Program-made: the position numbers and the translations under genes
Assembly (NCBI GenBank): GCA_039654915.1
Contig: CM077593.1
Span: forward strand, 111,525,413 to 111,589,412
DNA from: Aquilaria yunnanensis
Lineage: Eukaryota; Streptophyta; Magnoliopsida; Malvales; Thymelaeaceae
Length of the DNA: 64,000 bases
Direction: 5' to 3'
The notes under the pieces: generated by a model
What the model saw: the letters and a program-made list of their open reading frames with translations, nothing else
Database searches by the model: none
Told to the model about the DNA's origin: nothing
Shown: positions 30,901 to 64,000 of the stretch, piece by piece
How positions within the stretch are numbered: the stretch's first letter is position 1
How the letters are laid out: each line of letters begins with the position of its first letter

Positions 30901-32630
30901 TTGCATTCTGATAAACAATTAAGAACTTATCAATATCAGCCCTTGCATACATGCACTCCCATGTTCACGTGCACACAATCACGTTTTGTTCAAGGGCCAT
31001 TGTAGCATGAGGGTCCAACATATCCATTTTGGATGAAGGGCACAGGTTAGTCGTTCAATTTAGGTGGCCCCTTGGTCGTTAAGGAGGATCCCATGTACTT
31101 TTGTGGCTGTGATACATCGTCGTTCTTGTTTTGGATGATAGGCTGTTACATGAGCATTTTCCTTCAAATTGTTCATTTATGAAAGATATATTGATTAACA
31201 TAGTATCATCCTGTAAACCTAATGAATAAAACAAACACCCCATATGCGTGATTACAGTGAAAATTTTGTGGCTCAGAACCTTGAGCGCTTGCATTCCCTG
31301 GGATGACCCTGAGGAAATCGTTTAAGATCCGTACAGTAATTGTAAACCATGAAGTATTTTTGCACCCATCTCAGCCTTCTTCTACCTGTGGCATCGAGCT
31401 CTTGAGATAGCCATGTGGTGGTTCTGGCAGTTGCAGAAGCGCTCTTGGTCTCACATGCCGAGTAGCCTCCATTCGACCAAGTGCAAGCTTCGATTTTGAG
31501 GTTGCGAAAGTAGGCAGTGAAAGGGGCATTTGACCAGTCCGTTTTAACTCTCCCACCCATTGTAGCCCACTGCTCTGCGTCCCATAGGCTTGAGTAGACT
31601 CGCATAGGCTTGGTCTTGGGGAAGGGGATACCCAACAATTCATCACTGCTGAAGACTCGTAATGGGATGCTATCTACCAAGAAACTAATGAATAGCATAC
31701 TTATCAGTGGAGCTATAATCACAAAAAGAATTTTTTTAATAAAGTGATTTCTACCAATTTATGTGAAATAGAAATCAGTGATGGTCTATCTGTTAAAATG
31801 TAGGATTGCAGTTCTCATATGTTGTTCGACATGGTTTTAAATAATTTCATTTTGGTCCCCAAGCTTCAATATATGTGTCTGATTTACCTACAAAAAAATC
31901 ATATAACTAGATAGGTCAGTGTGATAAGAGGGTAGCATGTATCTTACATTATGCGGCGAGGATTCCAAACAATGGAGTAAGTGTGAAAGTCCTTCCTGGG
32001 ATCAAACCAGAGGTAGAACTGCTGCTCTCTGTTCCCTTTTCCTTCTGTGTAGATGTTCGTATGCACGATATAGGGCTGTCCACTCAAGTTGCCCAAGAAC
32101 TCAAAATCAATCTCATGCTGGTTTGGCCATTCAGAGGACAGCTGCAACATTACAGGGCAATGCAGTTAAGAAAACATGCCTCTAGTATCAATTTATCACC
32201 ATCAATAACAAGAAAGAAAAAGAAAAGTATGTGAACACGATGTGAATCATGATTGTGACTCATTTCATTTATCCAAAAATGAGCAAATTACTGAAGGCAT
32301 TTGCAGTATTGTGTAGCTTGCTTAGCTGGTATAGATTATTGAAGAGTTATCGAAAGGTTTTGCACTATGATCAACCATAAAGAAAAAGAAAGGAAAATTA
32401 CAATGGTTGAGAGATACATACATAGAAGGCAGTGACAGTGCCAGCAGAATTCCCAGGGACAAGTTTGATTTCCATGTCAACTCTTCCAAAGAGGAACTCT
32501 GTTTTGGACTGAAACCCAGAGCCAGAGGTCTGGTCAAGGGTGAGGCTTGCAAGCTTTCCTCCATCAAGAACCTGTGCTCTGTTGCCACCCCAGTTCATGT
32601 CCACCTCCTTGTTAAAATCACTACCAGCGG
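27925..32630. repeat. Segmental duplication, copy 2 (carries the intact XTH gene)
   Basis: Direct-orientation homolog of 1120-5510. It is interrupted near its left end by a foldback MITE (27981-28281). The plus-strand stretches at about 28500-28760, 29800-29960 and 30620-30700 correspond to the conserved stretches in copy 1. They are open for short distances only and match no family I recognise. The XTH half (31.27-32.71 kb) is complete here. Confidence 0.8.
27981..28281. mobile_element. AT-rich foldback MITE
   Basis: The ends form a long inverted repeat: aatttattttaacttaaatt on the left pairs with the complement of the right end, which reads taatttaaattaaaacgaat. Duplication copy 1 lacks this roughly 300-bp segment at the corresponding place, showing it is an insertion. 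The target duplication could not be settled, so the superfamily is open. Confidence 0.65.
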
Positions 32631-33975: not shown

Positions 33976-35527
33976 CATGATATATTGTAAATACCGCTTA
34001 GTACATACCATGGTATTTTTTTTTATGGCTATTTTTTTTCATTTTACATCAAAATATTATAAATATATAAAATATTAAAATATAAATAATATATATATAT
34101 CATAAAATAAACATATTTTTTTATATTTTTTATTACTTTTCTTAGTTAATATAAAATTTTAATAAATGGTAGCAACTTAAATGTCACAATATAAGTTCAA
34201 TTGATTGTAGTGGCTCCATGGTATATGGATCATATTGATATCTACAACAAGTGTCATCATCATTAACCGAAAATTCATCATCATTGGCCCCCATCTTTTT
34301 CAATAATCTATTCAGTGACAATTATTACATTTTTCAGCCATGTTGACACCCAATTTCGTCCGACTAAAATTTCTTTAAAAAAAAAAAAAATACATATATT
34401 ATTTTAGGGGTATTTTTATTCTAAATATGTGTGTATAAAAAAAATTGATTAAATTAATTAAAAAAAACTAAAAATTAAAATATTATTAGTTAATTTTTAT
34501 TTTAAAAAAAAAAAGTGGCTCTCGAGAGGCTTCGGGAGGCTTCTCCCTTCTTCTTTTTCTAGTTAAAAGAGAAGCCCCTGGGCTCCAGCGAGAGGGGAGA
34601 GCCGTCCATCTTTCTCTCTTCTCCCTCCACCTGCTCCCTTCTCGATTCTTCTTCCCTTTCTACATAAACAATTTCTCTCCTTCACGCTCTCAGCTCTCTC
34701 TCTCTCGGCCTATAGCTGAGTTATCTTTCTCTCTCTCCCTCCCGGTTTCGATCTTTTCTCTCTCTCCCTCTCTGAGTTATCTTTCTCTCTCTCTCCCTCT
34801 CTGTTTCTTCTCCCTCTCTGTTTCTATTCTCTCTCTCTCAGGCAGAACGCACACACACAGAAAAAAAAATTCTCTCTCTCTTCTCCCTTTTCTCTCCGCG
34901 CCAGCCTCCCTCTAGCCTTCTTCCGCGTCGCCGTCCGACACCATCCTAGCTTCGTATCGCCATCACCTCCGGTTTCCATCCCCGACGTCCCAGCCTTCAT
35001 CTTCTCTCCTCCGTTCGCCTCTGCTCCCGTCGCTCACCTCCGATCTCCCCTGCTGCTCGCCTGCCGCCGTGCTCCCGTCAGCTCCCGTCGCGCCCTCTGC
35101 TCTCCGCGTCGTGCCCCCTGCCGTCACGTCGCCTCCCTCGCTGCGACGCCATCTGCAGCTCCTCCCTTCACTCTTCGCCCGCCGCGTCAACGCCGTGCAA
35201 CCCCCCACCTCTCACGCCGTTGCGTTCCAGATCCGGTTGCAACGCCAGTGAGAGGTTGAAGACGAAGACAAGCGCGTCTGTTTTGTTTGACTAAGTCAAA
35301 TTCTTTTTCTTTTGGGGGGTGGATACGTATGGCTAATATGCATCTCACTTGGTGGTGTTTCATGAGTTGAATTTTGATATAGAAATTTGATACCTGGATG
35401 CAATTATATCAGTTTATTGTACCCTTTAAAATCAGTAGATCAGTTTCAGAATTACGGGTGTTTATTCAAAAAAAAAATGAATGATAAAATTCTGAGATTT
35501 CGAGGGTGTTTATGTCCATGACCGGGT

Positions 35528-35541
35528 GATCTGGTAAGATC
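35528..35541 (+). ncRNA. LTR hairpin 1 of 3
   Basis: GATCT-GGTA-AGATC, a 5-bp stem with a 4-base loop. It is flanked by ccgggt on the left and ccatggcttgga on the right. The same flanks and geometry recur at 36668-36681 and 36796-36809 with different stem bases that still pair. The 3' LTR copy is at 49385-49398. Confidence 0.6.
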
Positions 35542-35812
35542 CATGGCTTGGATAATTATTTAAAAATATTTCAAAACAATAGAAAATATATAAAGGGGAT
35601 TTATGAAAATCCTTAGAAGATAATCACCGCACCACTCGATAAGCCCAGCACTGATCGTTGATCAATCGCCCACTGCCGAACGATATCAAAACAGGACAAA
35701 AATCTGTTCTGGAATCCATAGCTCGATTAAAAGTCGACTCAAATCTCGGTACAATTCCTCTTATATTCTTCAACTTTTCTATTTCACATAAGTTACTAAC
35801 TAACTAACTTTA

Positions 35813-35845
<33 letters not shown>

Positions 35846-36198
35846 AGGGAAGGTTATGCCTCCTATTTATTATTTTTAAAAAAAAGTGGATGGCCGAAAA
35901 GCCCTACTTTATTCATTTATATATCATCTTTTGATATTCTTTTGTTTACTTTATGTGTTTTCCCTTTATCTATTTGCATGTGTTATTTAATTTATGCATC
36001 TCTTTTTTTTAATGGATGTTCAAAACAAAAATAAATAAATAAAAAAAATAAGAAAACCTCCACTTTATTTATTGTTATTTAATTTTTCTTTATTTTATGG
36101 TTAAACTCATTTCATTTAAAGAAATTAGCCATAAAAAAATATATATGTAAAATAAATTTGAACCATGTTGTTAAGTCAAAAAATTTTTTTTTTTAGTT

Positions 36199-36294
36199 CA
36201 TGGTATATTGGCTGGAAACTGTCTCGTGCCCGCTTTTGAGCTGCTTCACCTGGTGAAGAGGGTCTGGCTGAGTAACAACGCCCCGTACCATGAT
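36199..36294 (+). ncRNA. Structured leader motif shared with the pararetroviral leader
   Basis: TCATGGTA and TACCATGA form a closing stem of 8 bp. Inside are two blocks (CTGGAAACTGTCTCGTGCC and GGGTCTGGCTGA followed by GTAACAACGCC) around a variable hairpin (CTTCAC-CTG-GTGAAG). Both blocks recur at 59259-59366 on the minus strand around a different hairpin. The second LTR copy lies about 13.86 kb downstream, near 50056-50151. Confidence 0.6.
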
Positions 36295-36667
36295 CAAAGA
36301 TTTTTATTTTTAAACTCTTTGATTCCTTTAAATTAACTTCTTATTAAATAAAAAAATTAATTATTTTTTTATTCTTTTATAAATTGAGTAATTCTTTAAA
36401 TAATAAATATCCTTCATTAAACAAGAAAAATCAGATAAGAAAAAGAAAAGAAAGATAAGAGAAAGATAAAAATCAAAAAGATAAGAAAAAAAGAAAAGAA
36501 AGGAAAGAAAAAAAAAAAGAAAATAAATAAAATTTTTAGATTATTAATAAATCTAAAAATTTCATAAACAAAAAGAATTACGAATTAGTAATTAAACTAA
36601 CAATTAATTCTATAATAAGTAAGAATGTAATAATTAATTATAAAAAAATTAATTTCCATATCCGGAT

Positions 36668-36681
36668 GATCCTGCAGGATC
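36668..36681 (+). ncRNA. LTR hairpin 2 of 3
   Basis: GATCC-TGCA-GGATC in the same flanking context (tccggat on the left, tacggtttgga on the right). The stem differs from hairpin 1 at its last pair (T-A becomes C-G) and remains complementary. The 3' LTR copy is at 50525-50538. Confidence 0.6.
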
Positions 36682-36795
36682 TACGGTTTGGAAAACTTTT
36701 TTTACTAAAATAAATTAAATAAATACAAAGATAAAAATCCATATTTACAATATGGATTAGATTATTTAAAAGTTCACCAAATTCCGTGTCCAAAT

Positions 36796-36809
36796 GACTC
36801 GGCAGAGTC
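36796..36809 (+). ncRNA. LTR hairpin 3 of 3
   Basis: GACTC-GGCA-GAGTC, flanked by tccaaat and catggttcgga. Three stem pairs differ from hairpin 1 and all are compensated. The 3' LTR copy is at 50653-50666. Confidence 0.6.
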
Positions 36810-37106
36810 CATGGTTCGGAAGTATAAAATTTCATACAAATTAATTAATTACCAAAAATCCACATTTCGACTAATCCAGTTAAAATTTCTAATTTTGAAA
36901 ATTAACTGAAAATTATTTAAAAGCAAAGCAAAACAAAATTAAAATCAACTAAGGTGCCAATTTTTGGGCGTTTTGTCAAAGTTGTTTTAACGTAACAGTA
37001 CTCCCGATCCCCGAACTCTCGCAGACCATATTTTAGGTATCCAATCGACCTAAGAAAAACAGATTGGTGGCGACTCCCGAAAAAGGGCCAATCCGTTGCC
37101 ACAGCT

Positions 37107-37124
37107 TGGCGACTCCGCTGGGGA
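37107..37124 (+). other. Primer-binding site (tRNA-Arg-like)
   Basis: TGGCGACTCCGCTGGGGA starts three bases after the 5' LTR. This sequence class is known from Ogre and related Tat elements, which use tRNA-Arg. The exact tRNA match was not computed. Confidence 0.8.
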
Positions 37125-37971
37125 TCTTGGTTAGTGAGTCAAGCCTAAAAGTTGATTTATTTTGTTCTGTTTTGTTTATTTTTATGTGGATTTATATGTT
37201 ATATTTACTTATTCTAAACATGCATAATGCATTCACAAAATGAAGCTCTATACCCGAGCTTCCTCAAATCGAACACAATTCTTTCTAAGCGGAATTGGTG
37301 TTGTTGTCCTTGTGAGGCCATGGTCTCCAAGCCTTCACCGGTTTCAAAGTAGCAAAGTAGTGTATTGCCTCCTGAGACGGTTAGTCTCTGCATGGGCCCA
37401 CGAAAAGCTACGACTCGAATTAATCCATTCCTTACATTAACCCTAGAGGGTAAGGAATCGGGCCGTCATTATGATTTAGTGACGGGATTCGGGAACTATC
37501 CCTTACCTTTTTGATAAGCCACCTTATGCATATAGAACTCCCCACTTAACCATAGAACTGACCATAGAATTTCTACCATTTTTACCAACACCATAAGCAT
37601 ATCCTTGTTATGTTGTGTTGTTACTCTATACTTTTCTTCGTATGGTTTTAACTTGTTTATTCATAATACTTCATGAGTTGTTAATTACTATTTAACTTGT
37701 TAATAATCTTATTTTTCTTTTGTTATACTTCCGTTATGTGCAATTATTCTTCATGCATCAAAACCACACATCAAATTATGCTAACTTTTTGGTCTTTATA
37801 ATGATAACTAGAAGTCTTGAAGTTTCACAATAGTTGATAATCAAGCTCACTCATTGCATGCATCCATTGCATCAATCATATACATGTAAAATCTAATAAA
37901 ATGAATCTCACTTTAAAAAAAGTAAAATTGGATCTCAACACCAATATCCAACTCGGCTCCAAACAAGACTA
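37125..37971. other. Untranslated interior after the PBS
   Basis: No domain is visible. The sequence resembles the leader of Ogre-type elements. A 66-codon frame at 37240-37440 has no recognisable similarity. Confidence 0.45.
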
Positions 37972-38154
37972 ATGGCAGAACAAACTGAAGGACGTCTCAT
38001 AGATATAGAGTCCAAGATAGAAAATATGGCCGGAGCAATTCCCTCCTCATTACACCAAAAAATGAAATTCATTTTTGAAGGAAAGTTAATCACAATCTTT
38101 GCTGAAGAAGGCATTCTGCTATCATCTATATCAATAGTAGCAAAGGCCAAGTGA
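37972..38154 (+). pseudogene. Remnant of Ogre/Tat gag fused to a protease-region fragment
   Basis: This 60-codon frame begins MAEQTEGRLIDIESKIENM, a coiled-coil-like gag N-terminus. It then passes into LHQKMKFIFEGKLITIF and AEEGILLSSIS, which resemble the segment of Tat/Ogre polyproteins near the protease (a K-F-I-x-x-G-K-L-I pattern with a following E-E). The join implies an internal deletion that removed most of gag-pol. Recognition is from memory of the family. Confidence 0.5.
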
Positions 38155-38469
38155 CCTTCTTTTCCAAGTTGGTGTGACCCAAATCCCAAATGTAACTGAA
38201 AAGTCTGTGGTGCTGAAATTCAAGGTCCAACAGTTGGTCGAGTCTAAGTTGCTAGGCCATGATGTGATTGATAATTGAAAGTGAAGATTTTGAGCTGGAA
38301 TTACATTAATTTTGGAAGGGCTCCAAGTCAGATCTGACCTAACAGTCCGCACACACTTTTGAATGACAGGGAATCCTTTGAATAAACTTGTATCTTTGAA
38401 AGCTTGCAAAAGTAATTTAATAGTAAAAATCTCCTAGATTTAGTCCAGAATCTAGGGTGTAGTCTTTGT

Positions 38470-38830
38470 TAAATGGACACCTGCTATTCTTTTTCTGCTA
38501 CAACAAAAAGATGTGATGCGTGCATTCTACTACTTTCCATTTTTACACTCTTTGCCATTATACTATCCATTATTGCTATCACACTTTACTTTTTGACAAC
38601 CGGTAATTCTTTTTGTTCTCCAACAAAAAGATGTTATGTGTGCATTCTACCACTTTTTAATTCCATTATTACATCTACACATTCTACCAATTTTTACCAA
38701 AAATTCAATTATTACACCTACACATTCTACCACTTCTTACCAAAAATTCCGTTTTTATATCCATCTCTCACTCCTTTCCATTATACTATCCATTATTGCT
38801 ATCACACTTTACTTTGAAAATGATACTACT
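38470..38830. repeat. Internal direct repeats in the element
   Basis: Segments containing 'caacaaaaagatgt' and 'tgcattctac' recur at about 38500 and 38620. 'tatactatccattattgcta' recurs at about 38560 and 38780. These are degenerate repeats without coding capacity. Confidence 0.7.
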
Positions 38831-39676
38831 CGTGGGTGAAAATAAAAAGTTAAGGGAGATTTAATAGTGGCGATCTTGAAAGTGCTGTCAAATCTAGTAA
38901 GAAGGATTTCATATGTTGCACCCCAACTCTCAAAAAAAAGAATTCATAGTGGTTATCAACATCCTTGCAAGAAGTCTGGGGTTAGCTTCCAAACAAGGTA
39001 GCTCTCATATTAAATGACTTCAGTGGCCTCCCAATTCTCACAAATGCTCAATACAAAAAAAAAGATTCTCAGTTTTCCGCAACACAAATTCCAACAAAGG
39101 AAAGAAGTTCATCCTTTCCATCAAAAGCCATTAAAGGGAAAATCCAAAACAAAAAAAAAGAGACTGAGAGCAAACACAAGCAACTAAGGCCACTTGAATC
39201 ATCTCATTTCAAGAAGACTATGATCTCGGTTCTCTGTAACAAAAAAAAAAAACTCCGAAAAGGAAAAAGTTCATCCCTTCCATCAAAAAGCCAATAAGGG
39301 AAAATTCAAAACCAAAAAGAACTGAGAACAAGCACGAGCAAGCAAGGCCACTTGAGTCATCTCACTTCAAGAGAGTTATCAAGTATGTCATCACCATAGC
39401 TCACAAAAAAAAAAAAAAAAAAGGGAAACAAAAAAAAAATAAAAAAACAAAAAAAGAAAAAGGGCTCAAGTTAGAGCAAAAGAAAGAAAACAAAAAAGTG
39501 AGCTATGGATTCTAAACTGAAAACCTGCAAAGGCGGTCTAGAAGACAAAAGCAACTTTCAAGCCAAGCATACATAAAGACCACGATAGTTGGGGGGCAAC
39601 AGATGATGTTTAACTTTCTGGAAAGAGTGGCAAGTTTGAGGTCATCACTATTGAGTTTTTCACCATAATCAAATTT
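38831..39676. other. A-rich interior with degenerate repeats
   Basis: Two related segments, 39100-39240 and 39260-39380, share 'agcaagc/aactaaggccacttga' and 'catctcatttcaaga'. Long A runs follow near 39400. No gene is seen. Confidence 0.5.
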
Positions 39677-40140
39677 GCTCACGAGTAGTATTAAAAGACC
39701 CTTCTTCCACACCACTTAAATTTAACTTTTCTCAAACCGAACATCCTCATTCAGTTAAAAGACTATTATTGTGAATCATGTTTCTACCTTGTTTAATACT
39801 GCTCACGAGTAGTATTAAAAGACTATTCTTTCACACCACTTAAATTTAACTTTTCTCAAACCGAACATCCTCATTCAGTTAAAAGACTATCATTGTGAAT
39901 CATGTTTCTACCTTATTTAATACTGCTCACGAGTAGTATTAAAAAACCCTTCTTTCACACCACTCAAACTTAACTTTACTCAGACCTAATATTTACCTCT
40001 TAATATCATTCTCATTCAGCTAAAAGATTGCAACAAAAAAAAATTCAAACTTAATTTTCCTCACGCCTAACAGTTACCTCTCGATATCATCCTCATTCAG
40101 TTAAAAGGCTATTATTGTGAATCATGTTTCTACCTTATTG
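39677..40140. repeat. 124-bp tandem repeat
   Basis: The phrase gctcacgagtagtattaaaa starts at 39677, 39801 and 39925, giving a 124-bp period for over three units. The last unit is degenerate. Confidence 0.9.
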
Positions 40141-41100
40141 CCTTGCACAGTTTATGTCTTCGAGTTGGAAAGGGAAGAATGACAAGATATTTTAATTAAA
40201 AACAAAGACCGTAAATTACTTTGTCAAGCTTTGCAAATTGATGAAAGTTTTTCTTTAAGGCCAAACCATTATTCATTAATGTATGTAGACTTAAAAGTGA
40301 GGAGATAGCTTGAGTCTTTCTTTAATAAGATGTGGTTATTGTAAGAGAAATTTACGATCAAGTGCCATCACAAAGGTCTAGAAATGCTCGACCTTCTGTT
40401 AAATCAAAGGCGAGATGATACCTTTTATCCACATAAATACCATATTCAGGGGGGCAAAGTAGTCTCTATGAAGCGTAAGAGGAGTACTGCCAACAAAGAA
40501 GTTCAATAGACAATGGGGCAAGTCTTATGGATCAAAACATGAGTTCAAGGAAGAGCAATCATTCAGATTATAACATGGGAATAAGTAAGTGTCGGCACGG
40601 CCACAAGAAAAGGGGTAAAGCAGACATTGAAAGTAAAGCCTTTGATGGTATCAAATCCATGACAATGGATGAGTACCCGAAAGAGATATAAATTATGAGG
40701 CGGGCCAACTTTAAAGAAATTGAGGCCAAAATTCAAGAACAAGTCAAAGAAAGGGGATTTTGAAAAGAGTTGGGCTTTTGAGGCAGTGAACAAAAGCTGG
40801 AAAGCATAAAGAGATTCAATAATAGTCCAAGAAGGCCATCACAAAGAGGATCCAGTAAAACAAAGACATGAAGAACTAGATCCATACAAAAAAAAGCCAT
40901 TAGTTACACATGCTCTGCATTCATGCATTTCATATCATGCATACATAGCCTTTACATAACAAGGACCAAACGGGAATCACATTCACAGCACAGTTACAGC
41001 AATATAAGCTGAGATCTCAATGTCATCAGCTCTTACCAATCTATCACTGGATACACAGCTAATATGCGGGACCAACCCGCATCAGGAATTCAAGGATAAA
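40141..41100. other. Interior sequence without a recognised gene
   Basis: No domain-bearing frame is visible. A minus-strand frame at 40563-40793 and a plus frame at 41020-41202 lack similarity. Likely decayed internal domain of the element. Confidence 0.4.
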
Positions 41101-41480
41101 GTAGACAATATTGTCAAAAGCTTGGCTACCGATTCAATAATCGAGGCTACATCTGGAAGGACAGGATTGACGTCAGCTAGTAGTATCCAAGATAAGAGAT
41201 AGCTATAGCCAAGGATAAGGCAGATATCAAAAAAAAAAATATAAAGTAGACAATATTGTCAAAAGCCTGACAATTGATTCAATAATCGAGGCTACACCTG
41301 GAAGGACAGGATTGATGCCAGCTTAGCAGCATCCAAGATAAGAGATAGCTGTGGTCAAAGATAAGGCAGACATCAAGAAATATTGTCGTTGAAACTTTGT
41401 CAAAAGCGGACAATGGATTTAATAATCGAGGACTGGATCAACGTCAGCTCGATGGAATATCCAAGATAAAAAATATCTAT
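41101..41480. repeat. About 145-bp tandem repeat upstream of the first cargo ORF
   Basis: 'gtagacaatattgtcaaaag' occurs at 41101 and 41246. A third, diverged unit starts near 41385. Each unit continues with 'aataatcgaggctac' and 'atccaagataagagatagct'. The array ends about 140 bp before ORF A. Confidence 0.85.
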
Positions 41481-41616
41481 CACATCAAAATGAAGTAGGA
41501 TCTACCTTTCCGGTTAAGCGGCGGATACGGTACTCCGTGACTCTCAAGTCGGTTCTCTCAGTTGCCCATAATAACTAATTCTTTCCTCTCTTCTTTCTTT
41601 TACTTCCCTCTAGAAA

Positions 41617-42165
41617 ATGGATCCTACTCTTTCTGTCTTACAAAAATATTTTCCTTCTCTCCCAATGAACATTCTCAAAAAGATCTACCAAGTTCGCTGT
41701 GAACGATTAAGAGTTCTGATGCACAAAGGAATCCCTGAAGATGTGCGGTGGTTAATCGAAGCCAAGGTTCGTCTGGCAGGTGAAATCCCAGAGGCATTTG
41801 TGTCTCACATGCCTGGTATAGGCAGAAGCTCTTATGCCAAAAAGCGAAGAGCGAAAAGGTTACGAGTCTGCCACAAATGTGGACGGTGGACTTGTAATAC
41901 TAAATGTCGTTCTTTAGGAATGATCTCCGATAATCGAGAAGATAAAATACGATTCATCAAGAATGGCCTGAGTAAGGACTCATTGGATGATATCCAATTG
42001 ACTCTTGAGACGCATTCCTGTGGATCAGTGCAACGCGAACTTCTTGGTTTATGGAGTATTTTTCATGAAGAACGAGAGCGTTACAGTCCCAGGAATCTGA
42101 CTTTAAACGACCCTATTTGCCAGTTTGTAAGAAAGCTGGATGGGAAGCAAATCCTCGACTCATAA
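41617..42165 (+). CDS. Retrotransposon cargo ORF A (182 aa, cysteine-cluster protein, unknown)
   Basis: I do not recognise this protein. It is 182 aa, basic in the middle (AKKRRAKRLRV at about residues 74-84) and followed by a cysteine cluster C85-x2-C88-x4-C93-x3-C97 that could bind zinc. The C-terminal half is charged and helical in character, ending LTLNDPICQFVRKLDG. Two paralogs of exactly the same length follow in tandem (B and C). All three keep an open frame despite many substitutions, which argues for past or present selection on the protein. The start is the only sensible ATG; it follows a pyrimidine-rich stretch also present before B and C. DNA or RNA binding is a guess from the basic stretch plus Cys cluster. 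Confidence 0.75.
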   Translation: MDPTLSVLQKYFPSLPMNILKKIYQVRCERLRVLMHKGIPEDVRWLIEAKVRLAGEIPEAFVSHMPGIGRSSYAKKRRAKRLRVCHKCGRWTCNTKCRSLGMISDNREDKIRFIKNGLSKDSLDDIQLTLETHSCGSVQRELLGLWSIFHEERERYSPRNLTLNDPICQFVRKLDGKQILDS

Positions 42166-42326
42166 AAGCCGTTAATGCCGTTACTAGATGTAAAGCCAGT
42201 GGAAGATGTGAGTCACAGTCACAATTACTGTACATACAGTTTGTTATATTTGGAAAAGTTTGCATTTTCTTTTGACAGATGTACATGCTCCCCTAAGTGT
42301 AATCGACACGTTATCCCTTTTCATCA

Positions 42327-42334
42327 CTATAAAT
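42327..42334 (+). promoter_or_regulatory. TATA box of cargo ORF B
   Basis: CTATAAAT inside 'tcatcactataaat', 120 bp before the ORF B start. The same context precedes ORF C and, in a close variant, LOG. Confidence 0.65.
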
Positions 42335-42454
42335 GCGTGTTCTTCCTTCTGATTAAGCAGCGGATAAGATACCTCGTGACTTCTAAAGTCGGTTATTCCA
42401 GTCTCCTACAATAACTGATTCATTTCCCTCTTCTCTCAAATTCTTCTCTCATCA

Positions 42455-43003
42455 ATGGATTCTACTCTTTCTGCACTGCGAAAATACTTTTCTTCCCTTC
42501 CAATAAAAGTCCTTAAAAAAATCTACCTTGCTAGATGTGAAAGAATCAGAGTTTTTACACGCAAAGGCATTCCCGATAATGTGCAGTGGATAATTGAAGC
42601 TAAGGTCCGTTTGGCAGGTGAAGTTCCAGATGCATTTATGCCCCGCATGCCCGGTTTAGGTAAAAGCCGTTATGCCAAAAGGCGAAGAGCAAAGAGACTA
42701 GGCGTGTGTTATAAATGTGGGCGATGGAATTGTATTACTAAATGTCGCTCTTTAGGATACATCTCCATAAATCGTGAAGATAAAAGAAAATTCATTAAGA
42801 ATGGCCTGCGTAAGGAATCTCTGGAAGATATCCGAGAGACTCTTGAAACGCATTCTTGTGGAAAAGTGCAAGGTGAAATTATCGGTTTATGGAGGACTTA
42901 CCATAAAGAACGAAACCGTTACAGTCTTGGGAATGTGACTTTAAACGATCCTGTTTGTCAGTTTGTAAGAAAACTAGATGAGAAGCAAATCCCCGACTTA
43001 TAG
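42455..43003 (+). CDS. Retrotransposon cargo ORF B (182 aa, cysteine-cluster protein, unknown)
   Basis: Second tandem paralog, the same length as A. It retains the basic run (RRRAKRLGV) and all four cysteines (C85, C88, C93, C97), with the block LGVCYKCGRWNC. The region 5' of it (aagcggataag..., pyrimidine-rich to the ATG) is homologous to that before A. Differences from A are spread along the protein and no stop intrudes. Function unknown. Confidence 0.75.
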   Translation: MDSTLSALRKYFSSLPIKVLKKIYLARCERIRVFTRKGIPDNVQWIIEAKVRLAGEVPDAFMPRMPGLGKSRYAKRRRAKRLGVCYKCGRWNCITKCRSLGYISINREDKRKFIKNGLRKESLEDIRETLETHSCGKVQGEIIGLWRTYHKERNRYSLGNVTLNDPVCQFVRKLDEKQIPDL

Positions 43004-43152
43004 AAGGCATTGAAGCCATTACTGGACATAAATCAGGGGAAGATGAGAGCCACAGTCATGATTGCTGTACATATAAGCTGTCATTTGTCTTTTCTTTTGA
43101 CAATAATGTACTTGCTTCTGCAAGTGTAATTAACGTATTATCCCTTTCATCA

Positions 43153-43160
43153 CTATAAAT
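43153..43160 (+). promoter_or_regulatory. TATA box of cargo ORF C
   Basis: CTATAAAT in 'tcatcactataaatata', 67 bp before the ORF C start. Closely matched to the TATA of LOG. Confidence 0.65.
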
Positions 43161-43227
43161 ATATGTTAGTTATTTCCGTTTCCTACAATCACTAATTTCT
43201 TTCTTCTCTTAAATACCTCCTTCATCA

Positions 43228-43776
43228 ATGGAGTCTTCTCTTTCCGCCCTACGAAAGTATTTTCCTTCCTTCCCAATAAATATTCTTAAAAAGATTTATC
43301 AAGCTAGATGTGAACGATTCAGAGTATTTATGCAAAAAGGCATTCCTGATAATGTGCGATGGCTAATCGAGGCTAAGGTTCGTTCAGCCGGTGAAGTTCC
43401 AGAAGCATTCTTTCCCCGTATGCCCGACTTCGGTAAAAGCGCTTATGCCAAAAAAAGAAGAGCAAAGAGGCTAGGCGTTTGTCATAATTGTGGATGGTGG
43501 ATTTGGGGCAATAAATGTCGTTCTCCAGGAGTGATCACCAGAAATCGTAATGATAGAATAAAATTCATCAAGAATGGCTTGCGTAAAGAATCTCTGGAAG
43601 ATGTTCGAGAGGTTCTTGAAGCGCATTCTTGCGGAATAGTGCAATTTGAGGTTGTTGGATTATGGATAATTTTCCAAAAAGAACGAGATCGTTATAGTCT
43701 TGGGAATCTGACTTTAAACGACCCAGTTTGCCAGTTTGTAAGAAAACTGGATGGGATGCAAATCACCGATTCATAG
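43228..43776 (+). CDS. Retrotransposon cargo ORF C (182 aa, cysteine cluster partly lost)
   Basis: Third tandem paralog, again exactly 182 aa and uninterrupted. The cluster reads VCHNCGWWIWGNKCRS, so the third cysteine is replaced and only C85, C88 and C97 remain. If the cluster binds zinc in A and B, this copy may not. The conserved C-terminus (LTLNDPVCQFVRKLDG) is kept. It is followed by the 43790-44300 repeat field that leads into LOG. Confidence 0.75.
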   Translation: MESSLSALRKYFPSFPINILKKIYQARCERFRVFMQKGIPDNVRWLIEAKVRSAGEVPEAFFPRMPDFGKSAYAKKRRAKRLGVCHNCGWWIWGNKCRSPGVITRNRNDRIKFIKNGLRKESLEDVREVLEAHSCGIVQFEVVGLWIIFQKERDRYSLGNLTLNDPVCQFVRKLDGMQITDS

Positions 43777-43789
43777 AAAGCATTGAAGC

Positions 43790-44300
43790 CATTACTGGAC
43801 GCAAAGCCAGTGGAAGACGAGGATCAAAGTCACGATTACTGTACGTGCTAGCTGTCGCTTTTGAAATTTTCCTCCCCTTTTGGTAATAATGTATCCACTC
43901 CTGACGTGAACCAAAGTCACGATCACTGTATGTGCTAGCTGTCGCTTTTGAAATTTTCTTCTCCTTTCGGCGATAATGTATCCACTCCTGACATGAGCCA
44001 TAGTCACGATACTGTACATGCTAGCTGTCGCTTTCGAAATTTTCCTTCTCCTTTGGCAATAATGTACCCACTCCTGACACGGACTACTGTATATAGCTGC
44101 TACTTTTGAAATTTTCCTTCTCTTCCAATAATCACGTACCTACTCCTGACATAAGCTACAGTAGTGACTACTGTGTATGCTAGTTGCTTTTGAAATTTTC
44201 CTCATCTTTTAACGATAGTGTACCTATACCTGACCAGAGTCATACTTGTGACTACTGTGAATAGCTGGCAATAATGTATCCATTCTTGAAAATAAAATTA
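43790..44300. repeat. About 80-90-bp degenerate tandem repeats between ORF C and LOG
   Basis: Five to six units share 'gtcacgat.actgta.(c/t)gctagctgtcgctt', then 'gaaattttcc' and 'aataatgtatccactcctgac'. Related sequence follows ORFs A and B (for example 42210-42300), so this field looks like an expanded 3'/promoter spacer of the same cassette. Confidence 0.85.
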
Positions 44301-44319
44301 TTACTTTATCTTTTCATCT

Positions 44320-44327
44320 CTATAAAT
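44320..44327 (+). promoter_or_regulatory. TATA box of the LOG-type gene
   Basis: CTATAAAT in 'ttttcatctctataaatata', 49 bp before the LOG ATG. The context is nearly the same as before ORF C, so LOG appears to use a cassette promoter rather than its ancestral one. Confidence 0.65.
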
Positions 44328-44368
44328 ATATCCTCTTTTCTTCTTTTCTCACATGGGTAAGGATATGA

Positions 44369-44998
44369 ATGGAGAAAACCTCCACTCGTAAACCCCGAAG
44401 TATTTGTGTATTTTCTGGAGCTTTTCCTGGAGAAGATGAAGAGTACTTAAAGGCAGCCAACCATTTGGGTAGTGTATTAGCTGAGCGAAAAATACACTTA
44501 GTTTATGGAGGAGGTAGTGTCGGATTAATGGGAGCTGTAGCATCAGCAGCATCTTTAGGAGGAAGCCAGGTTCTGGGTATTATCCCTGCATCTCTGAAAT
44601 CGGTTTCTGGGGGCACGATTGGAGAAGAGCTAGTGGTTAAAAATCTGCAAGAGCGCTTGATACAAATGCTTTTTAACGCTGATGCTTTTATCGCTCTACC
44701 AGGTGGCTTTGGCACATTAGGAGAAGTCTTCCAAATTGCTTCCATGGCCCAACTTAATTTGCATCAAAAACCCATTGGGCTGTTAAATGTTAACTATTTC
44801 TTCGCAGGTCTATTATCTTTTATGAATCGTGCTGTGAAATAGAAGTTTATCCCTAAGGTGGCACGACGAATCATAATATCCGCAACAACTGCTGAAGAAT
44901 GGCTAGATAAAATGCAAGCTTTTGTTCCTGAACCATATCCAGCGATGATCCAAATAGACTGGGCACAACAGTCTTTCCCAACCAGTTCCGTCCCATAA
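44369..44998 (+). pseudogene. LOG-type cytokinin riboside 5'-monophosphate phosphoribohydrolase, intronless, one amber codon
   Basis: LOG enzymes release active cytokinin bases from riboside monophosphates in one step. The frame shows the Rossmann-like start SICVFSGAFPG, the nucleotide-binding block LVYGGGSVGLMGA, a conserved ER pair, and PGGFGTLGE (the family motif PGGxGTxxE) at about residues 111-119. A TAG at 44840-44842 ends the first 157 codons. The same frame stays open for 51 more codons with LOG-like content and ends at TAA 44996-44998, 210 codons in all, which is full family length. Host LOG genes have several introns and this copy has none, so it was probably captured from mRNA. Two out-of-frame ATGs lie just upstream (44353, 44365). 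Either it is a recently broken gene, or the truncated 157-aa form is what is made. Confidence 0.85.
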
Positions 44999-45539
44999 TT
45001 GTCCTTTACCCGGCCTGTTGAAGCATTGTGGAAGAAGAAGCGATCTGATCCGTTTTTCTTGTCCTTTCGTTTTAATTATCAGCATTTTCTTTCGTATTTC
45101 AGTTTTTCTTTTCAGGAAATTTCGTTATCTTATAAGATAGTTTCGTCCATGCTGATATTAAAACCATGGGACAATGCCTTTAGGTTGGAATGGCTGAGTA
45201 AAGAGTAATTTTTATTACTCTTGAGACGCATCCTATTAGGTCTACTAGGCATAACATTTTGGGGTAGTTAAGCTTTAACCTTATTTGGATGACATATCTC
45301 ACAAGGGAATCTATATTTACTGAAGAAAATATTAGATGAACCTTAGATATTGATTCCAAACATCCGTTCCCTTTACATAATTTGTCAGTGTTATTGTCAT
45401 CATCAAGATTCACTCATCTTATCGAAGTTTAAATTTTTGCACTCACCTATTATGAAAATTCACACTTTCGAAGAAAATTATTCCAATTTCAATTGCTTTC
45501 ATATAAATTTCGTTAAGGTCCTAAGGAAAGCTCCTTAGC
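44999..45539. other. Interior sequence between LOG and the 3' repeat field
   Basis: AT-rich sequence with no recognised gene. Short frames (44999-45208 plus, 45180-45413 minus) have no similarity. Confidence 0.45.
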
Positions 45540-47300
45540 CTCAAAATCAATTTTCATCATCGGGGTTTTAAGGATGGAACTTTTGCCTCGAAAATAATCA
45601 ATTTTCATCATCAGGGTTTTAAGGATGGAACCTTTGCCTCGAAAACAATCAATTTTCATCATCGGGGTTTTAAGGATGGAACCTTTGCCTTGAAAATAAT
45701 CAATTTTCATCATCGGGGTTTTAAGGATGGAACCTTTGCCTCGAAAATAATCAATTTTCATCATCGGGGTTTTAAGGATGGAACTTTTACCTCGAAAATA
45801 ATCAATTTTCATCATCGGGGTTTTAAGGATGGAACTTTTGCCTTGAAAACAATCAATTCTCATCATCGGGGTTTTAAGGATGGAACCTTTGCCTCGAAAA
45901 TAATCAATTTTCATCGTCGGGATTTTAAGGATGGAACTTTTGCCTCGAAAATAATCAATTTTCATCATCGGGGTTTTAAGGATGGAACTTTTGCCTTGAA
46001 AACAATCAATTTTCATCATCGGGGTTTTAAGGATGGAACCTTTGCCTCGAGATCAATCAATCAATTCGAGGTTTTAAGGATGGAACCTTTACCTCGACAT
46101 CAATCAATCAATTCGAGGTTTTAAGGATGGAATATTTACCTCGACATCAATCAATCAATTTGAGGTTTTAAGGATGGAACCTTTACCTCGACATCAATCA
46201 ATCAATTCGAGGTTTTAAGGATGGAACCTTTACCTCGACATCAATCAATCAATTCGAAGCTTTAAGGATGGAACCTTTGCCTCGAAATCAATCAATCAAT
46301 CCGAGGTTTTAAGGATGGAACCTTTGCCTCGAAATCAATCAATCAATCCGAGGTTTTAAGGATGGAACCTTTGCCTCGAGATCAATCAATCAATTCGAGG
46401 TTTTAAGGATGGAACCTTTACCTCGACATCAATCAATTTTCATCATCGGGGTTTTAAGGATGGAACCTTTACCTCGACATCAATCAATTTTCATCATCGG
46501 GGTTTTAAGGATGGAACCTTTGCCTCGAGATCAATCAATCAATTCGAGGTTTTAAGGATGGAACCTTTACCTCGACATCAATCAATCAATTCGAGGTTTT
46601 AAGGATGGAACCTTTACCTCGACATCAATCAATCAATTCGAGGTTTTAAGGATGGAACCTTTACCTCGACATCAATCAATTAATCCGAGGTTTTAAGGAT
46701 GGAACCTTTGCCTCGAAATCAATCAATCAATCCGAGGTTTTAAGGATGGAACCTTTGCCTCGAAATCAATCAATCAATCTGAGGTTTTAAGGATGGAACC
46801 TTTGCCTCGAGATCAATCAATCAATTCGAGGTTTTAAGGATGGAACCTTTACCTCGACATCAATCAATTTTCATCATCGGGGTTTTAAGGATGGAACCTT
46901 TGCCTCAAGATCAATCAATCAATTCGAGGTTTTAAGGATGGAACCTTTACCTCGACATCAATCAATCAATTCGAGGTTTTAAGGATGGAACCTTTACCTC
47001 GACATCAATCAATCAATTCGAGGTTTTAAGGATGGAACCTTTACCTCGACATCAATCAATCAATCCAAAGTTTTAAGGATGGAACCTTTGCCTCGAAATC
47101 AATCAATCAATCCGAGGTTTTAAGGATGAAACCTTTGCCTCGAAATCAATCAATCAATCCGAGGTTTTAAGGATGAAACCTTTGCCTCGAAATCAATCAA
47201 TCAATCCGAGGTTTTAAGGATGGAACCTTTGCCTCGAAATCAATCAATCAATTCGAGGTTTTAAGGATGGAACCTTTGCTTCGAAATCAATCAATCAATC
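45540..47300 (+). repeat. 3' tandem-repeat field, part 1 (51-bp then 47-bp units)
   Basis: About ten units of 51 bp (to about 46050), then about 26 units of 47 bp, sharing 'ttttaaggatggaacctt'. The two unit types alternate around 46430-46510 and 46860-46890. Each unit has GAGGT...ACCTC and AAGG...CCTT arms, so it can fold into a short hairpin. The 51-bp period is a multiple of three, which explains long open frames on both strands here; these are not genes. Confidence 0.95.
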
Positions 47301-48110
47301 CGAGGTTCTAAGGTAGGACCCTTAACCTCAAAATCATCAATTTTCCTTCAAACGATAGGAGAGTTCCTATCGTCGAGGTTCTAAGGTAGGACCCTTAACC
47401 TCAAAATCATCAATTTTCCTTCAAACGATAGGAGAGTTCCTATCGTCGAGGTTCTAAGGTAGGACCCTTAACCTCAAAACAATCAATTTTCCTTCAAATG
47501 ATAGGAGAGTTCCTATCGTCGAGGTTCTAAGGTAGGACCCTTAACCTCAAAATCATCAATTTTCCTTCAAACGATAGGAGAGTTCCTATCGTCGAGGTTC
47601 TAAGGTAGGACCCTTAACCTCAAAATCATCAATTTTCCTTCAAACGATAGGAGAGTTCCTATCGTCGAGGTTCTAAGGTAGGACCCTTAACCTCAAAACA
47701 ATCAATTTTCCTTCAAATGATAGGAGAGTTCCTATCGTCGAGGTTCTAAGGTATGACCCTTAACCTCAAAATCATCAATTTTCCTTCAAACGATAGGAGA
47801 GTTCCTATCGTCGAGGTTCTAAGGTAGGACCCTTAACCTCAAAATTATCAATTTTCATTCATCGAGGTTCTAAGGTAGGACCCTTAACCTCAAAATCATC
47901 AATTTTTCTTCAAACGATAGGAGAGTTCCTATCGTCGAGGTTCTAAGGTAGGACCCTTAACCTCAAAATCATCAATTTTCCTTCAAACGATAGGGAGTTC
48001 CTATCGTCGAGGTTCTAAGGTAGGACCCTTAACCTCAAAATTATCAAATTTTCCCTTCAATGATAGGAGAGTTCCTATCGCAGAGGCTCTAAGGAAGATT
48101 CCTTAACCTC
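47301..48110 (+). repeat. 3' tandem-repeat field, part 2 (about 73-bp double-hairpin units)
   Basis: About eleven units, most with two palindromes: GAGGTTCTAAGG-TAGGAC-CCTTAACCTC and a perfect ACGATAGGA-GAGT-TCCTATCGT. One unit lacks the second palindrome (about 47850-47870). The field ends about 100 bp before the polypurine tract. Confidence 0.95.
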
Positions 48111-48202
48111 TGAGTTTAGGCGACGAGAAAATTCTCAATGCCTAGCTAAGCCGGACGAAATTTGATAACGACTTTGCATACATCATGTCCCATGAAGCAT
48201 GC

Positions 48203-48215
48203 AAAGGGGGGCAGC
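48203..48215 (+). other. Polypurine tract of the Ogre-like element
   Basis: aaaggggggcagc directly precedes the 3' LTR. Confidence 0.9.
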
Positions 48216-49669
48216 TGTTGACACCCAATTTCGTCCGACTAAAATTTCTTTAAAAAAAAAAAAATACATATATTATTTTAGGGGTATTTTTATTCTAAAT
48301 ATGTGTGTATAAAAAAAATTGATTAAATTAATTAAAAAAAACTAAAAATTAAAATATTATTAGTTAATTTTTATTTAAAAAAAAAAAGGTGGCTCTCGAG
48401 AGGCTTCGGGAGGCTTCTCCCTTCTTCTTTTTCTAGTTAAAAGAGAAGCCCCTGGGCTCCAGCGAGAGGGGAGAGCCGTCCATCTTTCTCTCTTCTCCCT
48501 CCACCTGCTCCCTTCTCGATTCTTCTTCCCTTTCTACATAAACAATTTCTCTCCTTCACGCTCTCAGCTCTCTCTCTCTCGGCCTATAGCTGAGTTATCT
48601 TTCTCTCTCTCCCTCCCGGTTTCGATCTTTTCTCTCTCTCCCTCTCTGAGTTATCTTTCTCTCTCTCTCCCTCTCTGTTTCTATTCTCTCTCTCTCAGGC
48701 AGAACGCACACACACAGAAAAAAAAATTCTCTCTCTCTTCTCCCTTTTCTCTCCGCGCCAGCCTCCCTCTAGCCTTCTTCCGCGTCGCCGTCCGACACCA
48801 TCCTAGCTTCGTATCGCCATCACCTCCGGTTTCCATCCCCGACGTCCCAGCCTTCGTCTTCTCTCCTCCGTTCGCCTCTGCTCCCGTCGCTCACCTCCGA
48901 TCTCCCCTGCTGCTCGCCTGCCGCCGTGCTCCCGTCAGCTCCCGTCGCGCCCTCTGCTCTCCGCGTCGTGCCCCCTGCCGTCACGTCGCCTCCCTCGCTG
49001 CGACGCCATCTGCAGCTCCTCCCTTCACTCTTCGCCCGCCGCGTCAACGCCGTGCAACCCCCCACCTCTCACGCCGTTGCGTTCCAGATCCGGTTGCAAC
49101 GCCAGTGAGAGGTTGAAGACGAAGACAAGCGCGTCTGTTTTGTTTGACTAAGTCAAATTCTTTTTCTTTTGGGGGGTGGATACGTATGGCTAATATGCAT
49201 CTCACTTGGTGGTGTTTCATGAGTTGAATTTTGATATAGAAATTTGATACCTGGATGCAATTATATCAGTTTATTGTACCCTTTAAAATCAGTAGATCAG
49301 TTTCAGAATTACGGGTGTTTATTCAAAAAAAAAATGAATGATAAAATTCTGAGATTTCGAGGGTGTTTATGTCCATGACCGGGTGATCTGGTAAGATCCA
49401 TGGCTTGGATAATTATTTAAAAATATTTCAAAACAATAGAAAATATATAAAGGGGATTTATGAAAATCCTTAGAAGATAATCACCGCACCACTCGACAAG
49501 CCCAGCACTGATCGTTGATCAATCGCCCACTGCCGAACGATATCAAAACAGGACAAAAATCTGTTCTGGAATCCATAGCTCGATTAAAAGTCGACTCAAA
49601 TCTCGGTACAATTCCTCTTATATTCTTCAACTTTTCTATTTCACATAAGTTACTAACTAACTAACTTTA

Positions 49670-49702
<33 letters not shown>

Positions 49703-50960
49703 AGGGAAGGTTATGCCTCCTATTTATTATTTTTAAAAAAAAGTGGATGGCCGAAAAGCCCCACTTTATTCATTTATATATCATCTTTTGATATTCTTTT
49801 GTTTACTTTATGTGTTTTCCCTTTATCTATTTGCATGTGTTATTTAATTTATGCATCTCTTTTTTTTAATGGATGTTCAAAACAAAAATAAATAAATAAA
49901 AAAAATAAGAAAACCTCCACTTTATTTATTGTTATTTAATTTTTCTTTATTTTATGGTTAAACTCATTTCATTTAAAGAAATTAGCCATAAAAAAATATA
50001 TATGTAAAATAAATTTGAACCATGTTGTTAAGTCAAACAAATTTTTTTTTTAGTTCATGGTATATTGGCTGGAAACTGTCTCGTGCCCGCTTTTGAGCTG
50101 CTTCACCTGGTGAAGAGGGTCTGGCTGAGTAACAACGCCCCGTACCATGATCAAAGATTTTTATTTTTAAACTCTTTGATTCCTTTAAATTAACTTCTTA
50201 TTAAATAAAAAAATTAATTATTTTTTTATTCTTTTATAAATTGAGTAATTCTTTAAATAATAAATATCCTTCATTAAACAAGAAAAATCAGATAAGAAAA
50301 AGAAAAGAAAGATAAGAGAAAGATAAAAATCAAAAAGATAAGAAAAAAAGAAAAGAAAGGAAAGAAAAAAAAAAAGAAAATAAATAAAATTTTTAGATTA
50401 TTAATAAATCTAAAAATTTCATAAACAAAAAGAATTACGAATTAGTAATTAAACTAACAATTAATTCTATAATAAGTAAGAATGTAATAATTAATTATAA
50501 AAAAATTAATTTCCATATCCGGATGATCCTGCAGGATCTACGGTTTGGAAAACTTTTTTTACTAAAATAAATTAAATAAATACAAAGATAAAAATCCATA
50601 TTTACAATATGGATTAGATTATTTAAAAGTTCACCAAATTCCGTGTCCAAATGACTCGGCAGAGTCCATGGTTCGGAAGTATAAAATTTCATACAAATTA
50701 ATTAATTACCAAAAATCCACATTTCGACTAATCCAGTTAAAATTTCTAATTTTGAAAATTAACTGAAAATTATTTAAAAGCAAAGCAAAACAAAATTAAA
50801 ATCAACTAAGGTGCCAATTTTTGGGCGTTTTGTCAAAGTTGTTTTAACGTAACAGTACTCCCGATCCCCGAACTCTCGCAGACCATATTTTAGGTATCCA
50901 ATCGACCTAAGAAAAACAGATTGGTGGCGACTCCCGAAAAAGGGCCAATCCGTTGCCACA
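48216..50960 (+). repeat. 3' LTR of the Ogre-like element (2745 bp)
   Basis: Near-identical to 34341-37103. Differences noted include catctt/cgtctt (near 48858), gataagc/gacaagc (near 49497), cctac/cccac (near 49760), a small change near 50038, poly-A lengths and the 17-bp CT-tract indel. This indicates a recent insertion. Confidence 0.96.
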
Positions 50961-51419
50961 AGCCATAATATGGTGTTAAACAATATCCCCTAATTGGATT
51001 TCTGATGCATGCTACTCTAACTAAATATTACTATCATTTGCAGAATTTCTTGACTCAAAACCAAAATCCCATGACGTGAGATAAATATGTTGCTTTTGCA
51101 GAACAAGCTTGGAAAGAAGCGTCATACTTTGAGCTACTTAGGAACTCAATGTGGTATTAGAAAATATATTGTTATTATTAAAATATTAATTTTTTCCTCT
51201 TATATCAATAAATTAAATTTTTTTAGCATTATTTATTTTGCTCTATATATAACATTTTTTATGTTTTTTTATTTTAATAAAATATCTTCTATCATATATA
51301 TTTTATTTATATTTGACAAATTATGATTAGAAAAATTAGAATACATATAAAATGCATAAAAATAAATTATTGAACAAATTATGTTATCTTAAAATAATAT
51401 TTTAACATTTATCTTTTTA

Positions 51420-61290: not shown

Positions 61291-61291
61291 C

Positions 61292-63202: not shown

Positions 63203-63211
63203 CAGGGAGAT

Positions 63212-64000
63212 CTATACTGTGTAGATTGAAGCTTTCTCTGGATCAGAATCAGATTCTGAAGAGTAGGCTTCAATAGCAAAGAGGCTAGACGCCTCATCTT
63301 CTGTTTCCGAGAAAATGGACTCCATGTCGTCATTGGAAAGATCAGCTCCAGTGACTTGGGAGATGGTGTGCGCCATTTTCTTCTTTGACTTGCTGTTCTT
63401 TTTAGGACAATCTTTGGCAAAGTGTCCTGGTTGACGGCAGATGAAACAACATTTGAATTTGCCGCTATTCTTCTTGTATCGGAAGAATCTTTTCTTCTTT
63501 CTTCGAAATCGTTGGGGGCGATCAGGAGAATAGATTCTTCGTCTGTGGTGCTTCTTCCGAGGAGTGTTGCAATTGCAAGCACCTTTGTCTTTGCACTTGA
63601 TTGTTAACTCAGGTTGCTGACAGGCTCTATCAAACAGGCTCTGGGACTGGTTGAAATCCTTGAAGAATGAGTGAGTGTTACACAGCTTCCTGAGGGCCAT
63701 CATAAGGACTTGGTGGAGCTTTCCAAAAGAATAATCTTTAAGAGCAAGTCCACTCTACTGTATGATGCGAAGAGCTTCCTGGCCAATTGTGTCTGGCACA
63801 GAATTTAAGTATGCCTGCTTCAGGTTGTTGTCTGCTTCATAGCCGATGCAGATAAGATAGAAGCGTCTGAGCATACTTTCATAGTGCTTCTCAAGATCTT
63901 TTCGGTTATATGAGCAGCACTTCATTTTGAAGAATTCTTCTCTAGCTATATCCAGAAAAGCTTCTGGTTCACCAATGAATTCTTTGTATAGCTTGAGAAC
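63212..64000 (-). pseudogene. Endogenous pararetrovirus ORF1 part: coat protein with zinc knuckle (partial)
   Basis: The frame enters from the window edge as coat-protein-like sequence. It meets a TAG at 63755-63757, then continues through a basic region (RRRIYSPDRPQRFRRKKK) and the knuckle CFICRQPGHFAKDC (CX2CX4HX4C, about 63413-63454). An acidic serine-rich tail ends at TAG 63212-63214. Two in-frame stops therefore separate coat protein from protease/RT in what looks like one ancestral ORF. The 5' part with any movement protein is off the window. Confidence 0.75.

Follow-up and report, generated by a model that had tools for sequence, protein, structure and literature searches.

Large LTR retrotransposons of Aquilaria yunnanensis with a cargo of flexivirus-type nucleic-acid-binding protein genes and a LOG-type gene

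The genome of Aquilaria yunnanensis contains a family of large long terminal repeat (LTR) retrotransposons whose interior carries two to four genes of the nucleic-acid-binding protein (NABP) type known from flexiviruses, followed by one LOG-type cytokinin-activation gene. One member, referred to here as W, occupies positions 34341-50960 of the stretch analyzed, a 64-kb segment (C1:111525413-111589412 of the 842-Mb assembly) that is called the window below. Taken jointly, the existence of the family, its constant gene order, the absence of a pol gene of its own and the selection acting on its cargo are claims in which we place very high confidence.

A preliminary description of the window had proposed a 16.6-kb LTR element with four plus-strand genes in its interior. 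The element itself is borne out, as W has the paired LTRs, target site duplication (TSD), primer-binding site (PBS) and polypurine tract (PPT) of a non-autonomous LTR retrotransposon. Comparison of the flanks places the TSD, AGCCA, at 34336-34340 on the 5′ side and at 50961-50965 on the 3′ side, with no strand assigned. Between them, all on the plus strand, lie a 5′ LTR with TG...CA ends (34341-37103, 2763 bp), which has LTR relatives at other genome sites too; a PBS-like region (37104-37127), the core of which, GCGACTCC[G/A]CTGGGGA, is present in all nine elements read; a long leader without gag-pol (37128-41616), holding a 124-bp tandem repeat (39657-40028); the four genes; large minisatellite arrays with 47-bp and 73-bp units (45533-48110); a PPT (48202-48215); and the 3′ LTR (48216-50960, 2745 bp). 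The three 182-codon open reading frames (ORFs) and the LOG-type ORF were located as described, but the LOG frame stops at codon 158 and the third 182-codon ORF lacks an intact zinc finger. The LTR pair differs at 7 of 2745 aligned sites (0.26%) in addition to indels, which, for 1.3e-8 substitutions per site and year, dates the insertion to roughly 0.1 million years ago. No tRNA was found within the window; in Ogre elements, the PBS is complementary to tRNA-Arg (PMC9289625).

The arrangement recurs elsewhere in the genome. A search for LTR similarity yielded at least 61 matches, with 40 of 796 candidates scored, and six further stretches were read from these matches. NABP-LOG cargo is present in all six, which brings the number of elements to nine: W and E2 (both C1), E3 with nested F3 (C7), E4 with nested F4 (C4), G3 (C3), H8 (C8), and H5 (C5). 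The preliminary description had suggested a search for other copies and a comparison of their cargo, and both support a non-autonomous LTR element with a multi-gene cargo: the eight additional elements, on five other chromosomes and at a second C1 site, carry like ORFs between such LTRs, and the gene order is the same in all nine, with the NABP copies preceding a single LOG. Three NABP copies are found in W, F3, F4, H8, and H5, two in E2, E3, and E4, and four in G3, or 25 in total; 20 of these frames are open over 182 codons. LOG is present in every element and open over 209 codons in eight, W holding the sole interrupted copy. Measured in W and E2, the LTRs are 2.7-3.0 kb in size; the E2 pair shows 15 differences in 2975 positions, and E2 has its own TSD, ATGGT. 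In G3 (C3:78813500-78841100), an element with four open NABP genes, the minisatellite before the 3′ LTR is expanded to about 13 kb.

A search for replication genes was carried out with a caulimovirid reverse transcriptase (RT) from the window as the probe (tblastn, E 0.001). No match was obtained in W, E2, E3/F3, E4/F4, or G3. The probe does detect gypsy pol, at E 8.6e-32 in H5 and at E 4.5e-59 in H8, and so works, but both hits lie inside nested elements with their own LTRs. An RT match belonging to the element itself was found in none of the nine elements read, with gag not probed separately. ORFs of at least 100 amino acids (ATG, GTG, or TTG start) in the interior of W comprise only the four cargo genes, two ORFs in the repeat arrays and a 114-amino-acid ORF with no Pfam match, the only one left unexplained, and the proposal that W has no working gag-pol stands in this respect. 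By eye, G3 likewise has no ORF of at least 150 amino acids beyond the cargo, the LTRs and one low-complexity stretch. The family is represented by several copies at different sites, none with a detected pol of its own.

Two elements were considered as autonomous partners and rejected. H5 holds a gag-pol ORF of 1861 codons downstream of LOG and ahead of the 3′ LTR, yet this ORF is flanked by LTRs of its own that are 99.5% alike and belongs to a nested element; in H8, pol also lies within a nested element, with LTRs 99.96% alike. Besides its open gag-pol ORF, the element nested in H5, at C5:95612300-95639700, has large opposite-strand ORFs toward its 3′ LTR, an antisense pattern that by eye resembles that of Retand.

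The three 182-codon genes of W are A (41617-42165), B (42455-43003), and C (43228-43776), all on the plus strand. Each scores above the gathering cut-offs of both PF05515 Viral_NABP (E = 5e-7, 2.5e-7, and 1.3e-6, respectively) and PF01623 Carla_C4 (E = 1.4e-5, 2.6e-5, and 1e-4), and among aligned relatives 52 of 56 match the former and 47 of 56 the latter at E 0.001 or better. The match spans residues about 28-120, which correspond to a basic stretch and a Cys finger. The finger pattern, CX2CX4CX3C, is found in 23 of the 25 NABP copies, including A and B (in H8-C a stop falls inside the pattern); it is absent from gene C of W, which has lost one zinc-finger Cys, and from the frameshifted F3-A. 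Judged by these profile matches, the 182-codon family is not an unknown gene family, as had been thought, but the flexivirus NABP/cysteine-rich protein (CRP) family. Both termini, which the Pfam match does not cover, are also conserved between the plant proteins, so the plant genes do not resemble recent copies of a viral gene.

A structure model of NABP was searched against BFVD and gave 39 matches at E ≤10, with low TM-scores. Named flexivirus proteins account for 29 of them, mostly RNA silencing suppressors or nucleic-acid-binding proteins, with five unnamed and five other proteins, and the modeled fold would thereby weakly favor flexivirus kinship. A search of solved structures with NABP returned nothing meaningful (best E 0.35), and searches of viral contigs and phage records returned no NABP relative. 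A whole endogenized flexivirus was rejected as a source, with no other viral gene among the ORFs of W of at least 100 amino acids, smaller remnants not having been searched for; an endogenous flexivirus replicase is known in cucumber (PMC3136472). Viral CRPs suppress RNA silencing, and p12 of chrysanthemum virus B (CVB) is a transcription factor that induces hyperplasia (PMC12172455).

The fourth gene, at 44369-44842 on the plus strand, matches PF03641 (E = 1.8e-26) and retains, as PGGFGTLGE, the LOG family motif PGGxGTxxE. Beyond the stop at codon 158, the LOG-like frame continues to codon 209 (44843-44998), a portion that is open in the eight other elements. LOG proteins release the active cytokinin base. 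They are described as regulators of cytokinin activity (PMC9289625, section 12).

Three of the four cargo genes had been noted to have a TATA box within about 130 bp of the start, and CTATAAA indeed occurs on the plus strand at -128 of gene B (42327-42333), -75 of gene C (43153-43159), and -49 of LOG (44320-44326), with none for A. The argument for promoters draws on the position of this motif and not on its mere presence. Ahead of gene C, the other eight elements have it at -66 or -67; ahead of LOG, eight of nine have it at -41 or -49, F3 being the exception. It also precedes the B-type copies of F3, F4, G3 (both), H5, and H8, but not those of E2, E3, and E4, and lies at -88 to -128 in seven of ten B-labeled copies. 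From these positions, C and LOG probably have promoters of their own, while one for A is unproven. Five degenerate copies of an approximately 87-bp repeat upstream of LOG (43816-44270, plus strand) may act as an enhancer. By eye, these repeats look like stretches downstream of each NABP gene, which could represent a shared control sequence or enhancer.

Selection on the cargo was assessed from the ratio of non-synonymous to synonymous substitution (dN/dS; Nei-Gojobori method, NG86), leaving out copies with stops and pairs with dS ≤0.05. The median was 0.27 for gene A (10 pairs, range 0.18-0.60), 0.35 for gene B (23 pairs, range 0.20-0.84), 0.18 for gene C (17 pairs, range 0.12-0.33), and 0.25 for the first 157 codons of LOG (26 pairs, range 0.03-0.36). 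Between W and F4, differences at the three codon positions number 10/6/23 in A, 13/22/34 in B, 5/4/22 in C, and 17/6/33 in LOG. Gene B, whose set takes in the chimeric-looking copy 1 of E2 and E3, is the weakest case for selection. In a neutral simulation (substitutions only, 2000 runs; NABP at 79% identity and LOG at 88%), both frames stayed open in 0.5% of runs for NABP and in 10% for LOG, and the median dN/dS was 0.86 for NABP, from only 10 open pairs, and 0.80 for LOG, from 205 pairs. On the evidence of these comparisons, purifying selection has kept the cargo although the elements show no detected replication genes.

The elements have also exchanged blocks of sequence. Best local matches in 300-bp steps show W to be 99-100% identical to E2/E4 in most of the 37104-40100 interval, where a single step drops to 97%, and in most steps of 43704-45500 (lowest 98.7%). 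Over most of 40404-43400, identity to E2/E4 is 75-93%, with exceptions of 94% at 41004 and 98% at 41304, and G3, F3, and H8 reach 97-98% identity to W in places within this interval. Because the step identities switch in this way, W is best described as an E2-like backbone with an NABP block nearer another subfamily.

Relatives of the cargo extend beyond this genome. Protein searches returned 141 relatives among 203 candidates with gene B as the query and 284 among 316 with an Orobanche member. Among the 120 relatives listed per search, the named sources are Rhamnella, Xanthoceras, Acer, Populus (two), and Orobanche (two species), and most are nameless. The Rhamnella protein P0091 is a single gene model in which an NABP part is followed by a LOG domain; the latter was confirmed by a profile search, and the former is given by precomputed annotation and 55% identity to gene B. 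A second Rhamnella protein with an NABP part, P0078, is labeled in UniRef as 'Reverse transcriptase domain-...'. The sequence beside NABP in P0078 and in the Orobanche protein P0109 resembles, by eye, gypsy integrase/protease tails, which Pfam did not confirm. Relatives of LOG abound, in keeping with its membership in a plant enzyme family, and many of the 120 listed come from Reevesia chromosomes. Contigs of 8723, 4511, and 2128 bp recur among the NABP hits and the LOG hits, which hints that the two genes may share a contig, although lengths may also coincide by chance; 905, 1018, and 1386 bp recur as well, and the first two of these leave no room for both genes. In a FastTree phylogeny of 102 proteins, the NABP copies of four of the elements here, together with P0001 and P0002, form a single clade (support 0.989), which places the origin of A, B, and C in this host lineage or in close relatives of it.

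Based on these data, the best overall explanation, which we favor with somewhat better than even confidence, is that the element is kept by the effects of its cargo on its own spread. The RNA of the element would be packaged, copied and inserted by the gag-pol of an autonomous gypsy relative, and template switching between two co-packaged RNAs would account for the exchange of blocks. Cargo genes with a TATA-like box would be transcribed from their own promoters. NABP would be a nuclear, nucleic-acid-binding zinc-finger protein that weakens silencing of the element, or regulates transcription, as its viral relatives do, and LOG may raise active cytokinin where the element is awake, favoring cell division and the lineages that reach the germ line. 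Persistence would then follow from what the cargo does for spread and not from replication genes of the element's own. That the benefit runs specifically through silencing or proliferation is a narrower proposal, to which our analysis lends a little less than even probability. More speculative still, and rather doubtful as a whole, is a view of these elements as a class of plant retrotransposons without gag-pol that depend on an accessory program. An amplified virus-type suppressor or transcription factor and a cytokinin enzyme would be inherited jointly, swapped as cassettes and shared across eudicots, with NABP exchanged between RNA viruses and retrotransposons. The defective element would parallel, in plants, the acutely transforming retroviruses by raising its own expression and making its carrier cells proliferate.

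Several observations weigh against this explanation or the results beneath it. The nine elements are a set selected by LTR similarity, neither random nor genome-wide, and no autonomous partner was found among them. Five of the 25 NABP frames are interrupted (F3-A, F3-C, E4-1, H5-B, and H8-C), the LOG of the window is truncated, and G3 has LGG in place of the PGG of the LOG motif that the other eight elements retain. CTATAAA was not found within 160 bp of any of the six A copies or of copy 1 of E2, E3, and E4. One B-type pair reaches the dN/dS of 0.84 that bounds its range. At some sites, divergence is higher in the cargo than in the adjoining non-coding DNA, an excess that block recombination accounts for but that leaves the rates uneven. 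Finally, the NABP structure model is poor (pLDDT, the predicted local distance difference test, 61; pTM, the predicted template modeling score, 0.32), and none of its 39 BFVD matches reaches E 0.001.

An alternative role for NABP is that of a packaging or replication chaperone, which would bind the element RNA and recruit it into the gag particles of a partner in place of nucleocapsid, with LOG as separate cargo. A basic zinc-finger protein in two to four copies, in elements without detected pol, would suit such a function, but its finger is not of the retroviral CCHC type, and both LOG and the separate promoter-like modules would be left unexplained. A viral CRP of another group does associate with virions in a Zn-dependent manner (PMC11213338), whereas the reported roles of the viral relatives are silencing suppression and transcription (PMC12172455). 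We consider this role unlikely. Alternatively, the elements might be retained by the plant, with NABP copies serving as decoys or dominant-negative forms against flexiviruses. Homology to viral suppressors would allow this, yet the copies are young, with near-identical LTRs in W and E2, and are spread over several chromosomes, which fits selection at the level of the element better than a fixed host locus, so that host use is given little probability.

Passive hitch-hiking, by which a captured viral gene and a host gene would do nothing for the elements, has a precedent in the capture of genes by plant LTR elements (PMC7264820), and the broken LOG of the window is compatible with it. It is already disfavored and appears very improbable, given that both genes are kept in all nine elements, that dN/dS is 0.03-0.36 for LOG and has medians of 0.18-0.35 for NABP, compared with roughly 0.8 when neutrality is simulated, and that relatives occur in five named plant genera. 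For an assembly artifact, or a chance array of genes between unrelated LTRs, no supporting point was found; the TSD and the same gene order in eight further elements (on C3, C4, C5, C7, C8, and the other C1 site) reduce its probability to almost nothing. An assembly join or single accident is very unlikely on the same grounds, because like ORFs lie between such LTRs in all eight.

Large retrotransposon derivatives (LARDs) are large non-autonomous, non-coding LTR elements, and acutely transforming retroviruses are replication-defective and carry growth-promoting cargo. Both are replication-defective LTR elements like the W family, which is coding, with open, selected cargo genes where the LARD interior has no coding capacity, and for which a growth effect is proposed. 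VANDAL elements are DNA transposons. Those with VANC encode an anti-silencing protein of a plant transposon, a proposed likeness to the W family, although VANC is unrelated to NABP and anti-silencing has been demonstrated for VANC but is only suggested for NABP (PMC10398659, PMC5735166). Insect retrotransposons with a viral RNA-helicase also combine a domain from plus-strand RNA viruses, with reported weak silencing suppression, and a proposed anti-silencing role; there, the helicase is fused to the polyprotein, whereas in the W family, plant LTR elements in which no pol is detected, the NABP genes stand free (PMC6338049). In orchids, Ogre-like giant gypsy elements carry an AlkB/2-ODD RNA demethylase, a domain that is also found in Alpha- and Betaflexiviridae, but they keep gag-pol and carry a different protein (PMC9289625).

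The closest LOG parallel is the LOG-family YgdH domain in Ty3/gypsy elements of Citrus and Populus (PMC9289625 section 12, citing Steinbauerova 2011). As in the W family, a LOG-type gene is present as an extra domain, and Populus also has NABP proteins. Those elements were found via their reverse transcriptase, whereas the W family has no detected pol and carries two to four NABP genes ahead of LOG, and NABP is not among the names given in that section. Additional ORFs of plant LTR elements have been reviewed (PMC7264820), and other extra domains are named in PMC11963269 and PMC6317226. Among titles and the openings of abstracts, supplementary tables lying outside this scope, no report of NABP as retrotransposon cargo was found; six of the 15 domains in section 12 of PMC9289625 are unnamed. 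The NABP/CRP of carlaviruses and betaflexiviruses, such as CVB p12 and the NaBp of sweet potato chlorotic fleck virus, shares PF05515/PF01623 and a Cys finger after a basic stretch. The plant version, known from sequence, differs in its 182 amino acids, its conserved termini outside the Pfam match and its chromosomal, multi-copy location within an LTR element. What appears to be new is the virus-type cargo in elements without detected gag-pol; gypsy-type elements with additional ORFs, and LOG in the gypsy elements of Citrus and Populus, were already known.

LTR elements abound in plant genomes and need to evade silencing, yet to our knowledge few plant retroelement proteins have an anti-silencing role. 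In the W family, proteins otherwise known chiefly as silencing suppressors of viruses form a multi-copy, selected retrotransposon cargo, with relatives in several eudicot genera and coupled to a hormone-activating gene. This makes it testable whether retrotransposons spread by means of growth hormones and suppressors of the viral type, and from where flexiviruses acquired NABP or to where they passed it on.

The remainder of the window holds other mobile and cellular sequences. A Copia-type element (12744-17845), with 324-bp LTRs that are 100% identical and a polyprotein in one open frame (13226-17410), sits inside what appears by eye to be a minus-strand ABC-B transporter gene (ORFs 12342-21868). 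A piece of a xyloglucan endotransglycosylase gene lies at 31273-31722 on the minus strand (PF06955, PF00722). At 60010-63703, also on the minus strand, an endogenous pararetrovirus-like stretch includes an ORF (61292-63202) with matches to RVT_1 and to two RNase H models and a weak match to a protease.

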